NCBI RefSeq assembly: GCF_019977235.1
Contig: NZ_AP024646.1
Span: 4,402,001 to 4,466,000, forward strand
Direction of reading: 5' to 3'
Length of the DNA: 64,000 nt
Origin: Arthrobacter sp. StoSoilB5
Lineage (GTDB): Bacteria; Actinomycetota; Actinomycetes; Actinomycetales; Micrococcaceae
Part shown: piece after piece, positions 58,292-63,999 of the stretch
Layout of the letters: the number at the start of each line of letters is the position of its first letter
Position numbering within the stretch: position 1 is the first letter of the stretch
Translations under genes and position numbers: made by a program
The notes under the pieces: generated by a model
What the model saw: the letters and a program-made list of their open reading frames with translations, nothing else
Databases searched by the model: none
Told to the model about the DNA's origin: nothing

Positions 58292-60091
58292 ATGTCCAAA
58301 CAAACGTCATTCTTCACATCCGTCGGCCGCCTGTACCCTCATGTACGGCCCATCCTCCCCCGGCTTTTCATGGGCCTCCTCTGCGCCCTGCTCGCCAGCA
58401 TCGTCGCGCTGACCATCCCGCAAGTGTTGCGTGTTTTGGTCAACAACTCGCTGCAACCCGGCGGTGACCCAGGCGCCGTCTGGATTGCCGCCGTCGTGAT
58501 TCTTGCGCTTGGTGTGGCTGAGGCCGGACTTGTGGCCTTGAGGCGGCAGTTCGTTATCAACCCGGCCACCACGGTTGAGACCAGGATGCGCGTATCGCTG
58601 TATGGTCACCTCCAGCAACTCACAGTGTCTTTCCATGACCGCTGGGGTTCCGGGCAGTTGCTGTCCCGGGCCATGACGGACCTGAGCTTTTTGCGCCGCT
58701 GGATGGCGTTCGGGGCAATCATGCTGGTGGTCACCACGTTGACGGTGATCATTGGCGTCGGAGTTATGTTCTCCATGAGTTGGCAGTTGGCGCTGATCTT
58801 CCTTGGCGCGGCGGTGCCGATCATGGTCAACTCCTTCCGCTTCCGCCGCCGCTTCAGCCTGGTCACGCGCCTCAGCCAGGACCAGGCGGGCGACCTCGCC
58901 ACCACCGTGGAAGAGTCCGTCCATGGCATTCGCGTCTTGAAAGCATTCGGCCGCAGCCGCGAAGCGCTGGAGAATTTCAACGGCCAGGCAGAAGAGCTGC
59001 GGCAGACCGAAATCGCCAAGGCCAAGCAGCAAGCCGGTTTCACGCTGGTGGTCACGTTGCTGCCTGAGCTGGCGCTGGGCGTCGGCCTGGTGGTAGGCAT
59101 CATGCTCGCGGCCACCGGCCAGCTGAGTATCGGTTCGCTCGTTGCGTTCTTCGCGACTGCTGCCGTCGTGGCTACTCCCGTGGAATTTTCGGGCATGCTC
59201 CTGGCCATGGCGCTCACTGCCAAGACTGCGCTGGACCGACACTTCGAAGTCATGGATACCGAGAACACCATCACCTCGCCGGCCCAGCCCGCAGTGCCGG
59301 AGACCGTGAAGGGCGCCCTCCGCTTTGAGCATGCGGGCTTCGGATTCGACGACGGCGGGACGCTCCTGCACGACGTCACCCTGGACATTCGGCCGGGCGA
59401 AACAATGGCGCTAGTGGGCATTACCGGCAGTGGCAAGAGCGCCTTACTCCAACTGGTGCCGCGTCTATACGACGTCACGGAGGGCGCCGTGAGCATCGAT
59501 GGCGTCGACGTCCGCGATTACGACATTGAGGAACTCCGCCGGATCGTGGCGGTCGCTTTCGAGGACACCACACTGTTCTCCAGCTCAGTACGGGACAACG
59601 TCCTGCTCGGCGCCCCTGAGCCCAGCGACGCAGCGCTTGACCAGGCTTTGGACGTAGCACAGGCCCAGTTCGCCTACTCCCTGCCAGAGGGCGTGGACAC
59701 CCTGATTGGCGAGGAAGGCTTGAGCCTGTCCGGTGGCCAGCGGCAGCGCATCGCCCTCGCCCGGGCCATCGCCGCGAAGCCGAAAGTCCTGGTCCTGGAC
59801 GATCCCCTCTCCGCGCTGGACGTGAACACCGAAGAGCGCGTGGAAGCCCATCTGCGTGAGGTCCTGCACAAGACGACCACGCTGATCGTCGCGCACCGTC
59901 CTTCCACGGTGGCATTGGCGGACCGGGTCGCCTTGCTCGAAAACGGAACCATCACCGCCGTCGGGACCCACACGGAACTGTTGGCTGAAAACCCACATTA
60001 CCGTTACGTCATCGCAAGCCTGGATACGGGTCCGAGGGACCTGGACAGTGAACTGGACGAGCTCGAAGACGCCCAGGAGGCCCGCCGGTGA
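58292..60091 (+). CDS. Heterodimeric ABC exporter, subunit 1 (degenerate-site type)
   Basis: A 599-residue fused permease/ATPase. Six membrane helices occupy residues 15-300. In the ATPase part are Walker [15 protein letters not shown] near residue 375, the canonical signature [16 protein letters not shown], Walker [14 protein letters not shown] and the switch His in LIVAHRPS. Walker B ends in Asp-Asp rather than Asp-Glu, so the catalytic Glu is replaced. The ATG at 58292 follows GAGAAGCGGG. Its stop overlaps the second subunit by 4 bases. Confidence 0.93.
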
Positions 60092-61920
60092 GCGCCACAA
60101 CTTTTGGAACTGCCAACGAGGACAACACGCTCCTGACCAAAGCGGACAGCAAAGCAGTACGACGCCGGTCGCTGACCTTGCTTGCCTCGCTGATCCGCCC
60201 GGTGCGGCTGCGTTTCTGGGTGACAATCGTGATGGTGGTGGTTTCGCAGCTCACCCGGGTGGCGGGGCCAGCCCTGATCGCCTTTGGCATCGACGCCGCG
60301 TTGCCCGCTTTGCAAGCCGGTGACAACGGCCCGCTTGTACTCGCCGGTGCGTTGTACTTGGCCGCAGCGGTCGCCACGGCCGCAATGACAGCCCTGTATG
60401 TAACGTCCACGGCCCAACTGAGCCAGGCCATGCTGTTGGACCTCCGGGTCCGCGTGTTCAGGCACACCCAGCGGTTGAGCCTGGAATTCCATGAGAAGTA
60501 CACGTCCGGCCGCATCATCGCCCGTCAAACCTCGGATCTTGAGGCGCTCCGGGAATTGTTGGACTCCGGTGTGAGCTCCCTGGCGTCGGGCATGCTGTTT
60601 ATGCTCTTCACTGCCTTCACGGTGTTTGCCTTGGACTGGCGCAGTGGATTGATCATGCTTGCGGCGGGTGTGCCCATGTTCTTGCTCGCGCGCTGGTACC
60701 AAAAGCATTCACAGATCGCGTTCCGGGAATCCCGGGTTGTTTCAGCGCGGTTGATCGTACACTTCGTGGAGACCATGACCGGCATCCGTGCAGTGAAGGC
60801 CTTCCGCAAGGAGCGCGAGAACGCTGACCGCTATGGTGCGTTGGCTGAGGACTACCGCAAGAACACCGTCCGCTCCATCAACCTCAACGGCATCTTCCAG
60901 CCTGGACTGGTGCTGATCGGCAACGTGTGTGTGGCGGCGGTCCTGTTGTTCGGCGGGTTCAGGGTGCTCAGCGGTGACCTCGCCGTAGGCGTCCTTCTGG
61001 CCCTCATCCTCTCCACCAAGCGCTTCTTCCAGCCGGTGGACCAGATGGCCATGTTCTACAACTCCTTCCAGAGCGCACAGGCGGCACTGGAAAAAGTATC
61101 CGGGCTCCTGGAGGAAGTGCCCACCGTCCGGCCGCCAAAGAATCCTGTCCCGCTGAAGAGTTCGCGCGGCGAGATCGACTTCAGAGGCGTGCAGTTCGGG
61201 TACAGCGATGGCAAGGTGGTTGTGCCCAAACTGGACCTGCACATTCCGGCTGGCCAAACTGTTGCCTTGGTTGGACAGACGGGCGCCGGTAAATCCACCT
61301 TGGCCAAACTCGTTGCGCGCTTCTACGACGTCACGTCCGGCGCCATCACTTTGGACGGCGTTGACCTCCGCGACCTTGCTACTACCGACCTTCGCCGGGC
61401 AGTGGTCATGGTGACGCAGGAAGCCTTCCTTTTCAGCGGCTCCGTGGCTGAGAACATTGCGCTGGGCCGGCCCGAAGCTTCGCGTGAAGAAGTGGAGGCT
61501 GCGGCTAAAGCAGTGGGCGCGCATGAATTCATCATGAGTTTGCCCGAGGGATATGACACGGATGTCAATAAGCGCGGAGGGCGCGTCTCATCGGGCCAGC
61601 GCCAACTGATCGGATTCGCCCGGGCTTTCCTCGCCGCGCCTGCTGTCCTGATCCTGGATGAAGCAACATCCTCCCTGGATATTCCTTCCGAACGGATGGT
61701 TCAGGCAGGGCTCGCCCACCTTCTGGAGGGTGTCGCTGGCCAGAACGCTGCCCGCACCGCCATCATCATTGCCCACCGTCTCTCCACTGTGGAGACGGCA
61801 GACAGGGTACTGGTGGTCCACGATGGACGGATTGTTGAGGACGGAACACCGGCGGAACTGATAGCTGGTGGCGGCCAGTTTGCCCGGCTCCACGGGGCAT
61901 GGCGGGACTCGCTCGTGTGA
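60088..61920 (+). CDS. Heterodimeric ABC exporter, subunit 2
   Basis: A 610-residue fused permease/ATPase with six membrane helices (about residues 40-330). Walker A is [14 protein letters not shown], Walker B with intact Glu is [12 protein letters not shown], and the switch His is in [10 protein letters not shown]. The signature is altered, VSSGQRQ instead of LSGGQ. This pairs with the altered Walker B of subunit 1 to give one weak and one active ATP site, as in TM287/288-type exporters. The start is GTG at 60088. The cargo is unknown. Confidence 0.93.
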
Positions 61921-62277: not shown

Positions 62278-62320
62278 CAAAAGAAAACCCCGGAGCATCG
62301 CTCGTCACGCTCCGGGGTTT
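62278..62320 (-). terminator. Intrinsic terminator of the secreted peptide gene
   Basis: A 12-bp perfect stem (62285-62296 with 62309-62320) encloses 12 bases and, read on the - strand, is followed by TTTTCTTTTG. It lies 17 bp after the stop of the peptide gene, so that gene is its own transcription unit. Confidence 0.85.
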
Positions 62321-62337
62321 CCAGCAGTACTACTGAT

Positions 62338-62538
62338 TTACATAGGATCCGGCCAATTGCCGATGGAAGACGTGGTAGGTACCGTTGTGGTGCCGGACCG
62401 CATAGGATCGGGCCAGTTACCAATAGCACTTACCGTGCTGGAGTCTGCCGCCGCAGCAGCCGAGACGACTGCGGGAGCCGCAACCGTAAAAGCGAGAGCG
62501 CCTGCCAAGGCCACAGAAGCGGCCATTTTCTTGAACAT
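62338..62538 (-). CDS. Secreted small peptide precursor with two IGNWPDPM segments
   Basis: A 66-residue precursor. MFKK and a long hydrophobic stretch (residues 5-26) form a signal peptide, with likely cleavage after Ala 27 or Ala 31. The remaining 35-39 residues contain IGNWPDPM twice, at 39-46 and at the extreme C-terminus 59-66, 20 residues apart and separated by a Thr/Ser/Pro-rich linker. No other domain is present. The ATG at 62538 follows GGGGAA with good spacing; a TTG four codons earlier is less likely. It has its own terminator and diverges from an XRE/TPR regulator. I do not recognise it from any described family; a signalling peptide is the inference. Confidence 0.8.
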   Translation of the reverse strand: MFKKMAASVALAGALAFTVAAPAVVSAAAAADSSTVSAIGNWPDPMRSGTTTVPTTSSIGNWPDPM

Positions 62539-62595
62539 ATTGTTCCCCAATGCGAGTCGGATTCGTTACGGAAATTGCACGGTCCCTGTTGACAT

Positions 62596-62609
62596 ACATT
62601 GTAAAATGT
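62596..62609. promoter_or_regulatory. Palindrome over the peptide promoter
   Basis: ACATT-GTAA-AATGT is a perfect inverted repeat. On the - strand it overlaps TACAAT (62603-62598), a likely -10 for the peptide gene, with TTGACA at 62628-62623 as -35 (19-base spacer). On the + strand it contains TAAAAT, a possible -10 for the regulator gene. It is the best candidate operator in the divergent region. Confidence 0.5.
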
Positions 62610-62662
62610 TTTCCACAGAGACTGTCAAGGTTTTGGTGAAAAGACACCTGTAGGAGGACCCC

Positions 62663-63949
62663 GTGGGAAACGGATTCGGCGAGAAGCTACGTGCCGAACG
62701 GCTCGAACGCGGGTTGACGCAGGCAGAACTGGGCAAAAACCTGTATTCCCCGAGCTACATTTCGCTGCTTGAAACAGGTAGGCGCGAGCCTACTGCCGAG
62801 GTCATCGAAGAGCTGGCGCGCAGGCTGGAGCTGGCTCCAAAGGCTCTGGAAGCCTGGAGCCAACCCGTTTCCGTGAGCGATGCCGAGTACGTGCTGGCCG
62901 GCTTGTACGCACGGCAAGCCTGGGACCTACGCGATTACCAGCTCGCAGCAAGCCATGCAGCCACCGCCGCACAGATCGCCCTCGAGGCAAAGAACAACAG
63001 CGCCTGGTGGAATATGACCTACATGCAGGCCGAGTGTGTGATGAAGCAAGGCCAGCTAAAGGAATGCCAGCAGATTGTTGAGCACTTGCTGGAACATCCC
63101 ATGGCCACGGAATCCGCGGGCCTTGGCGTGCGGGCCTGGCAGATGCTCGCCGCCGTCTGTCACGGACAAGGTCAGCTGGCCACCGCCGTCGAGCATGCAA
63201 AGAAAGCCGTGCAGCTGAGCGAGCAGCTGCCCAAGGGATCCACGCTGATCATCGGTGCGCACCGCGCGCTGATCGGCGCCCTCGCGGAGAGCGGCAAGCT
63301 GGACGAAGCATGGCAGTACTGCCTTACGATGATCGAGCACATGGACGAGCACTCCATGTCCCAGCTGGCCGGCGAAGTCGCGTGGGTGGTGGGAAACGTT
63401 GCTTTCATGCGCCACGACTACGTGGAGGGCATCAAGCACCACGAGCGCGCGGCCAAGCTGCTCTCCCCCGCCAACGACATCGAACTGTGGGCCCGTTTCA
63501 ATAAGGCATCGGCTGCTGTCAGGTTGTCCTCCGGCATTGTTGAGCCCGAAACCCTGTCCGCGATTGAACGTGCCGAGCTCGCGCTATCCATCGTCGGCGG
63601 AAACAAGACGGACCAGTTGGAAGTGGCCTTCATCCGCGCCCGTTGGCTATACCTGACCGGCGATATTCCGGCCGCGGTGGACAAGCTTCGCGAGATCTAC
63701 AAGGACCGCAAGGTGTTGGCCCGCCACACGGCTGGTGAAGTTTCGCTGCTGCTGGGCAAGTCCTTGAAGGCCGCCGGTGAAACCACGGAAGCGCTGCACT
63801 ATCTGGAAGAGGCCCAGAACGACTTCAGTGCAGCCGGCGCATCGGACCGGGTGCAGCAAGCCATGGATGCGGTCCTGGAGATCCGCCTCGCGGAACGCCG
63901 CGCCGCAGCCACGCACCCTGAGCACACGGAGCACTCCGAGGCCAGTTAG
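62663..63949 (+). CDS. XRE-family regulator with TPR domain
   Basis: A 428-residue protein. Residues 5-60 are an XRE helix-turn-helix (LRAERLERGLTQAELGKNLY, then SPSYISLLETGRREPTAEVI). The rest is helical TPR-like repeats, for example AYVLAGLYARQAWDLRDYQLAASHAATAA, LAAVCHGQGQLATAVEHAKKAVQLSE, ALIGALAESGKLDEAW and SLLLGKSLKAAGETTEALHYLEEAQ. This layout equals that of peptide-sensing RRNPP regulators (Rgg, PlcR, NprR). The start is GTG at 62663 after TAGGAGG. It diverges from the small secreted peptide gene and ends in a 20-bp hairpin. Confidence 0.9.
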   Translation: MGNGFGEKLRAERLERGLTQAELGKNLYSPSYISLLETGRREPTAEVIEELARRLELAPKALEAWSQPVSVSDAEYVLAGLYARQAWDLRDYQLAASHAATAAQIALEAKNNSAWWNMTYMQAECVMKQGQLKECQQIVEHLLEHPMATESAGLGVRAWQMLAAVCHGQGQLATAVEHAKKAVQLSEQLPKGSTLIIGAHRALIGALAESGKLDEAWQYCLTMIEHMDEHSMSQLAGEVAWVVGNVAFMRHDYVEGIKHHERAAKLLSPANDIELWARFNKASAAVRLSSGIVEPETLSAIERAELALSIVGGNKTDQLEVAFIRARWLYLTGDIPAAVDKLREIYKDRKVLARHTAGEVSLLLGKSLKAAGETTEALHYLEEAQNDFSAAGASDRVQQAMDAVLEIRLAERRAAATHPEHTEHSEAS

Positions 63950-63954
63950 CTTCC

Positions 63955-63999
63955 AACGCAGGCAGCCCCGGACCTTCGCGGTCCGGGGCTGCCTGCGTT
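63955..63999 (+). terminator. Strong hairpin after the XRE/TPR gene
   Basis: Arms 63955-63974 and 63980-63999 are perfectly complementary over 20 bp around TTCGC. The window ends before any T tract can be judged. Confidence 0.8.

Follow-up and report, generated by a model that had tools for sequence, protein, structure and literature searches.

The divergent gene pair considered here lies near one end of a 64,000-nucleotide stretch of DNA from Arthrobacter sp. StoSoilB5 (NZ_AP024646.1, positions 4,402,001 to 4,466,000; referred to below as the window). It consists of a gene for a small precursor protein that carries the octapeptide IGNWPDPM twice and a gene for an XRE/TPR regulator. The pair most likely forms a two-gene peptide-signalling circuit of RRNPP-like type, outside Bacillota, in which an exported, processed and re-imported peptide would bind the TPR groove of an autoregulator. 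This mechanism is proposed because of the analogy with RRNPP systems and because the peptide unit covaries with the receptor. A reading of the sequence alone had pointed to a peptide-signalling pair, which is supported at the comparative level by the conservation of the pair and of the repeat, and by covariation that includes a held-out test.

Conservation of the precursor and its regulator

The precursor gene occupies positions 62338-62538 of the minus strand (ATG at 62538; stop codon, included, at 62338-62340) and encodes 66 amino acids. Residues 1 to about 28 (62455-62538, minus strand) form a predicted signal peptide, assigned by eye and from an alignment of 57 homologs, with a Lys-rich N-terminus, a hydrophobic stretch and Ala-rich sites of the signal-peptidase type, where cleavage would occur. 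The IGNWPDPM units are residues 39-46 (62401-62424, minus strand) and 59-66 (62341-62364, minus strand), the latter being the exact C-terminus. Coordinates and translation agree with the secreted 66-residue precursor with a duplicated unit described in the sequence-only reading. The 57 homologs were obtained in a protein database search. When aligned, they show no variation at G40, N41, W42 and P45 and at least 90% conservation elsewhere in the unit, although a complete second unit is missing from a few that are short or shifted. As a separate observation, a weak match to positions 1-30 of the precursor profile (E 0.0018), with no WP unit matched, was found at G000:C1:4228114-4228203, within a 227-residue open frame.

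The codons of the two copies in the window show 4 synonymous and 0 nonsynonymous differences. The same holds on a larger scale for 61 ortholog precursors, where the 164 copy pairs have 374 differences in some 740 synonymous sites (a proportion, pS, of 0.505) and 3 in some 3196 nonsynonymous ones (pN 0.0009). The copies are therefore old and held identical at the protein level. The linkers between units are variable (75 distinct among 100). Where the unit varies, it does so jointly across the copies of a precursor: residue 1 of the unit was common to all copies in 58 of 58 multi-copy precursors (shuffle mean 19) and residue 8 in 57 of 58 (shuffle mean 38); in a new set of loci, residue 1 was common to all copies in 95 of 97 multi-copy precursors.

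The regulator gene (62663-63949, plus strand), delimited by its open frame and a domain search, encodes a 428-residue proposed receptor; its divergent layout and its XRE and TPR domains are as the sequence-only reading had it. The helix-turn-helix (HTH) domain, residues 4-64 (62672-62854, plus strand), was recognized by PF13560 (E 8.2e-12) and PF01381 (E 5.5e-11) and in a structure model. The TPR superhelix, residues 70-417 (62870-63913, plus strand), was recognized by PF13424 (E 6.1e-10), the model and a fold search, and would provide the peptide-binding groove. The model was based on an alignment and reached a predicted local distance difference test score (pLDDT) of 88.6, with helices spanning residues 71-417; it superseded a first, single-sequence model (pLDDT 76.7, mostly below 50 in the HTH).

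The nearest named relative of the regulator is from Arthrobacter sp. StoSoilB13. Its sequence likeness to characterised receptors is weak: the Pfam family RNPP_C scored 11.9 bits against a cut-off of 26.5. In a search of the PDB with the regulator profile, PlcR was the best natural-chain match (E 1.8e-11, positions 4-194, that is, the HTH and part of the TPR), and many unrelated TPR or HTH chains matched too. The 50 best matches of the fold search included Rap, NprR and PlcR (structure 3u3w, Foldseek rank 12, 14% identity in the structural match), a result that is not specific, as other TPR proteins scored equal or higher. With neither model did RRNPP receptors stand above all other TPR proteins, and Rgg, ComR and PrgX were not among the matches listed.

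Of the 206 genomes of the genus, 199 gave a regulator match with an E of 1e-150 or lower, as did 192 of the 195 good-quality ones. The region upstream of it was read at 163 orthologous loci, 156 from the same genus (48, L001-L048; six, L108-L113; and 102, L316-L417) and 7 from a sister genus (L049-L054 and L114). A divergent precursor of the WP type, with 1-6 units, was present at all 163, so the pairing of regulator and precursor exceeds chance. One of these precursors, that of L394, was overlooked by the script pattern and confirmed on separate reading, and that of L108 has a single altered unit, SGNWPYPV. The export signal of ortholog precursors was recognized by eye and, for 54 of them, also in a crude scan with controls. 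The precursor ends in a unit in 53 of the 61 orthologs and in 97 of 101 precursors of the new set; this position and the conservation of the unit would fit a short pheromone at or near the C-terminus. The sequence-only reading had named two outcomes that would speak against it, namely regulators lacking an adjacent repeated peptide and an NWPDPM repeat that is not conserved; neither was observed among the orthologs, where the WP-type precursor is constant, and the unit is conserved in the homolog alignment.

Covariation of the unit with a patch of the proposed receptor

Residue 1 of the unit (I, V or T) was tracked by receptor residues 127, 129, 132, 167 and 168 in 60 of 60 orthologs; L108, with its degenerate unit, was left out of this set. 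The receptor signatures at these five positions are M-Q-L-H-G for I, I-Q-W-Q-G for V and M/L-H-L-Q-R for T. When the 212 variable receptor columns were ranked by their information on residue 1, the top nine were 127, 167, 132, 165, 164, 166, 129, 168 and 131. The corresponding stretches in the window are codons 127-132 (63041-63058, plus strand), with tracking residues 127, 129 and 132, and codons 164-168 (63152-63166, plus strand), with tracking residues 167 and 168 and, more weakly, 164-166. In the model, the tracking residues map to the turns in two adjacent TPR repeats, one formed by helices 112-128 and 132-144 and the other by helices 152-168 and 172-186.

The rule was then fixed before the 102 new loci (80 newly fetched and 22 from the genus survey) were read. 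The script read 101 of them, of which 100 were callable and 99 were called correctly, compared with about 72 for a constant guess of I; L394, read by eye, also agrees with the rule. The sole miss, L354, has a mixed precursor (I, I, I, T). The uncallable locus, L361, combines a receptor of intermediate signature, M-Q-L-Q-G, with a mixed precursor (V, V, V, I), and is an apparent evolutionary intermediate between the I and V types. When the I and V units were pooled, leaving out mixed and T rows, all 151 of them agreed with the receptor at columns 127, 132 and 167. A similar relation was tried for residue 8 and was rejected as only partial, aliphatic residues at 174 or 180 occurring also with M8 units (e.g., L111, L112, L021 and L036). 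The covariation of the unit with a TPR patch, held-out set included, is comparative evidence that the two are ligand and receptor.

Some observations weigh against this interpretation or narrow its reach. The best tree implies nine switches of type, but independent pairs on well-supported branches number just 2, too few for a sign test. All the covariation loci are relatives, and the new set is devoid of the T type. Universality is also limited, as no peptide was visible, even after a second pass, at 22 of 49 more divergent loci of the taxonomic family, chosen by hand from its 174 genomes with a regulator match. The scarcity of well-supported switches is what would be expected if the peptide and receptor types were markers of clades through shared descent alone, the repeat being kept for an unrelated reason. 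Nevertheless, the tracking columns are concentrated in two neighbouring TPR turns, and the intermediate receptor of L361 goes with a mixed precursor. Moreover, when receptor columns 115-185 are excluded from the tree, I-type receptors and peptides still reappear together within the V and T clades (L021/L036, with moderate branch support, and L017-L020, L022 and L040). For these reasons shared descent alone is the least probable of the explanations considered here.

Intergenic region, neighbouring genes and the proposed circuit

Between the two genes there is a conserved block (62589-62629, no strand), delimited in 53 aligned orthologous regions, with two facing TTGACA hexamers (62589-62594, plus strand, and 62623-62628, minus strand) and a palindrome in between. 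The pattern TTGACA-y-ACATTGTAAAAT-nnn-TTCCACAG-n-G-n-CTGTCAAG is near-invariant in the 53 regions, and its flanks are variable. The palindrome, ACATT-GTAA-AATGT (62596-62609, no strand), is a candidate operator. It overlaps TACAAT (62598-62603), a -10-like hexamer of the putative precursor promoter with a spacer of 19 bases by eye, and also falls in the spacer that belongs to the TTGACA on the regulator side (62589-62594). The sequence-only reading had described a perfect palindrome over the likely -10 of the peptide gene; the overlap stands, but the palindrome is imperfect, with two 5-bp arms around 4 bases. A promoter scan of the intergenic region gave no consensus promoter.

With up to 1 mismatch allowed, the palindrome is found at a single place in the 5.3-Mb genome; the 30-base block likewise has no further copy when up to 3 mismatches are allowed, and a genome-wide regulon search by operator sites gave no targets besides the pair. 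As the site is unique, its strictest target is the pair itself, and further targets would require diverged sites. We infer that the regulator may control its own expression at this candidate operator.

A strong hairpin follows each gene, in agreement with the separate terminators that had been proposed from the sequence: 62283-62322 for the precursor gene (minus strand; -30.3 kcal/mol, z -4.6; CTTTTG after the stem) and 63955-63999 for the regulator gene (plus strand, terminator-type; -46.9 kcal/mol, z -9.7). A simple terminator scan flagged neither hairpin, there being just four T past the full stem in the first case, while in the second the window stops before any T run.

Concerning the neighbourhood, two adjacent genes of exporter-type ATP-binding cassette (ABC) proteins (58292-61920; Pfam) adjoin the pair in 7 of the 9 Micrococcaceae regions that were compared. 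They are missing in L267, which is not syntenic, and in L264, where precursor and regulator are still present; because of L264 the ABC exporters were rejected as obligate partners. The other flank has genes resembling purC and purD (by eye) in 8 of the 9 regions. No modification enzyme was noticed near the precursor, though Pfam was run on the ABC pair only and the neighbours were not all scanned. The adjoining exporter-type genes could fit an antimicrobial peptide, and one may ask whether the precursor is an antimicrobial, an adhesin or some other product, controlled by a regulator that senses something else. This seems very unlikely, considering that the unit covaries with the TPR patch of the regulator in the held-out set too, that precursor and regulator persist without the ABC pair in L264 (the pair being missing also from the non-syntenic L267), and that what surrounds the precursor is purC/purD-like genes on the other flank and, as far as the neighbours were scanned, no modification enzyme.

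The proposed circuit would operate as follows. The precursor would leave the cell through Sec and be processed to short peptides with xGNWPDPx as their core, the multiple units yielding more peptide per precursor chain. The peptide would re-enter through an oligopeptide importer and bind the concave TPR groove, with residue 1 near receptor residues 127-132 and 164-168, as the covariation suggests. The regulator would sit on the palindrome between the facing, overlapping putative promoters, at a site that is itself conserved, and peptide binding would switch the transcription of both precursor and regulator.

The re-entry step has a competitor in which binding of the regulator to the precursor or its units takes place in the cytosol; the pair would then sense its own export and report secretion capacity or precursor level, and the secreted form would have no receptor role. 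The covariation links the unit to the TPR patch and is silent on the side of the membrane where they meet. Furthermore, of the 12 peptide-type solute-binding proteins in the genome (SBP_bac_5 matches over the cut-off), none is encoded in the 19-kb stretch around the locus. On the other hand, importers of the right type do exist elsewhere in the genome, and the several short units, the varied linkers and the mostly exact C-terminal unit have the look of a precursor that is cut after export. Sensing in the cytosol is accordingly judged unlikely, and signalling by a re-imported peptide is preferred.

The wider family and its relation to known systems

A regulator match at E 0.001 was obtained for 174 of the 295 genomes of the taxonomic family, about 30 of these matches being weaker than 1e-5. 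At the 49 divergent loci, a clear WP-type precursor was found in 23 and a likely one, with a lax pattern, in four more (L085, L087, L093 and L097), which makes 27 of 49. L091, whose stretch begins at a contig end, was left out of this count; its contig, re-read as L310, showed no clear precursor. The units shift with the receptor at these loci: AVGIWPNS, VGNWPDA, PGNWPDS, PGIWPDS, TGNWPN, VWIWPD, and VGDWPH and AVGNWPDRFYSVTP, the last two each in up to eight copies. It was also observed that 10 of the 22 peptide-less loci come from one genus (L069-L071, L073, L074, L077, L082-L084 and L104), in which L064 and L067 have a precursor; the former may have lost the precursor or have it elsewhere. 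The expectation that regulator homologs in Micrococcaceae would have a signal-peptide frame upstream is borne out at all 163 orthologous loci read but not at those 22 divergent loci, and the family extends well beyond Micrococcaceae. Regulators at E 1e-20 or better were found in 43 of 347 genomes of an order sample, 64 of 296 of a class sample (profile A2) and 34 of 296 of a phylum sample (profile A3), all of which include genomes of the window's own genus.

The crude signal-peptide scan detected a divergent open reading frame within 400 bp at 54 of 54, 24 of 49 and 27 of 36 loci. In the controls for the same sets, the other strand had such a frame at 9, 6 and 7 loci, and sequences shuffled by 3-base blocks averaged 8.8, 7.9 and 6.1; with control hits this frequent, single hits outside the orthologs may be spurious. 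Among 80 named loci (Jiangella, Streptomyces, Nonomuraea, Microbispora, Actinoallomurus, Cellulomonas and others), there was a divergent signal-peptide frame at 62, with 55 ending exactly in CC, and one on the other strand at 15. This rate is not unbiased, because the loci were fetched with profile A3, the 19 rows of which were picked from loci showing a precursor. A pass with slightly wider limits gave 17 other-strand frames, 10 of them CC precursors in the regulator's own direction, so this control is contaminated by likely real signal. The same-direction upstream precursors with CC near the end (L196, L198-L202, L204, L205, L213 and L214) are mostly from Cellulomonas, and two of them are also among the 62.

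In the phylum set of 26 loci, from which L281 and L302 were left out as too short for the scan, there was a divergent precursor at 16, versus 4 on the other strand. WP occurs in the last few residues in 10 of the 26 (ANWPHH, ANWPKH, SAGWPKH, AKWPWG, APWPHCC, APWPPCC and others) and FP takes its place in three more. Several precursors (L149, L152, L156, L293 and L298) have both the WP and the CC motif. Since, in addition, the receptors are homologous and the layout is usually the same, we hold with moderate confidence that WP and CC precursors are one family.

A second pair was found in the same genome, outside the window and about 160 kb from the locus. A 355-residue TPR-only protein, in which no HTH was found, diverges from a precursor (L094:1504-1677, minus strand) with two IGWWPN units, the second at the C-terminus. 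The stop of the TPR-only gene (L272:7565-8629; region G000:C1:4294000-4311000) overlaps the start of a GGDEF-EAL gene (L272:8629-10188); the opposite side is occupied by the gene of a GAF histidine kinase. At 12 related loci, a GGDEF-EAL gene was within the stretch read in 11 and a C-terminal WP precursor was detected by pattern in 10. This gene order suggests that the second peptide signal may feed cyclic-di-GMP.

Taken together, these data make us lean, with appreciable reserve, towards a peptide language common to the phylum Actinomycetota. It would comprise XRE/TPR receptors facing exported precursors coded WPxx, CC or both, and HTH-less TPR receptors facing GWWPN-type peptides beside GGDEF-EAL, the latter tying peptide sensing to cyclic-di-GMP; the residue-1 code of the NWPDP peptide would be readable from five receptor residues. 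As part of the same proposal, the code would be NWPDPM in Arthrobacter relatives, of the APWPHCC type in distant members, and CC in Streptomyces, Nonomuraea and Jiangella. Streptomyces and other genera with relatives of the system are known for natural products. If true, a peptide code of soil actinobacteria would allow gene expression to be steered by cheap, synthetic and strain-specific means. The receptor switches of three to five residues and the apparent intermediate L361 would also make the family a natural laboratory for the joint change of signal and receptor.

Concerning the literature, passages of PMC10075063 and PMC9765709 treat RRNPP systems as a Firmicutes family, and the same passages and others of PMC13220807 place them in Firmicutes, or in Gram-positives with Firmicutes examples. 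Actinobacterial signals are described as typically small molecules in part of PMC10075063. In the relevant portion of PMC4748050, which reviews quorum sensing in the phylum, the signals mentioned include cyclic or modified peptides and gamma-butyrolactones, with no RRNPP-like actinobacterial system shown, and a term search of PMC12700828 found no actinobacterial terms. Among the papers listed from open-access full text, which excludes subscription journals and preprints, none deals with RRNPP-like peptide pheromones in actinobacteria, and the peptide motif gave one unrelated match, on sensor coils.

In RRNPP/RRNPPA receptors, except for Rap, the XRE-type HTH is N-terminal, and the PapR peptide is at the C-terminus of its precursor. 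The pair studied here resembles PlcR-PapR of the Bacillus cereus group in having an XRE HTH and TPR receptor with a small secreted precursor encoded alongside. It differs in that the precursor is divergent and multi-copy, the TPR domain is longer, the phylum is another and the identity in the structural match is only the 14% given above. Signalling with gamma-butyrolactones relies on a small-molecule ligand and a different receptor family; it resembles the present pair in the density-signalling role proposed here. The conserved WP core of the peptide sets the pair apart from NprR-NprX and Rgg/ComR, with which we know of no shared peptide motif. Finally, Rap systems of Bacillus phages with duplicated Phr pheromones are described in part of PMC11343458. 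Unlike Rap-Phr, the regulator of the present pair has a DNA-binding domain and its precursors have 1-6 identical or nearly identical units, whereas the TPR-only paralog differs from Rap in adjoining a GGDEF-EAL gene.
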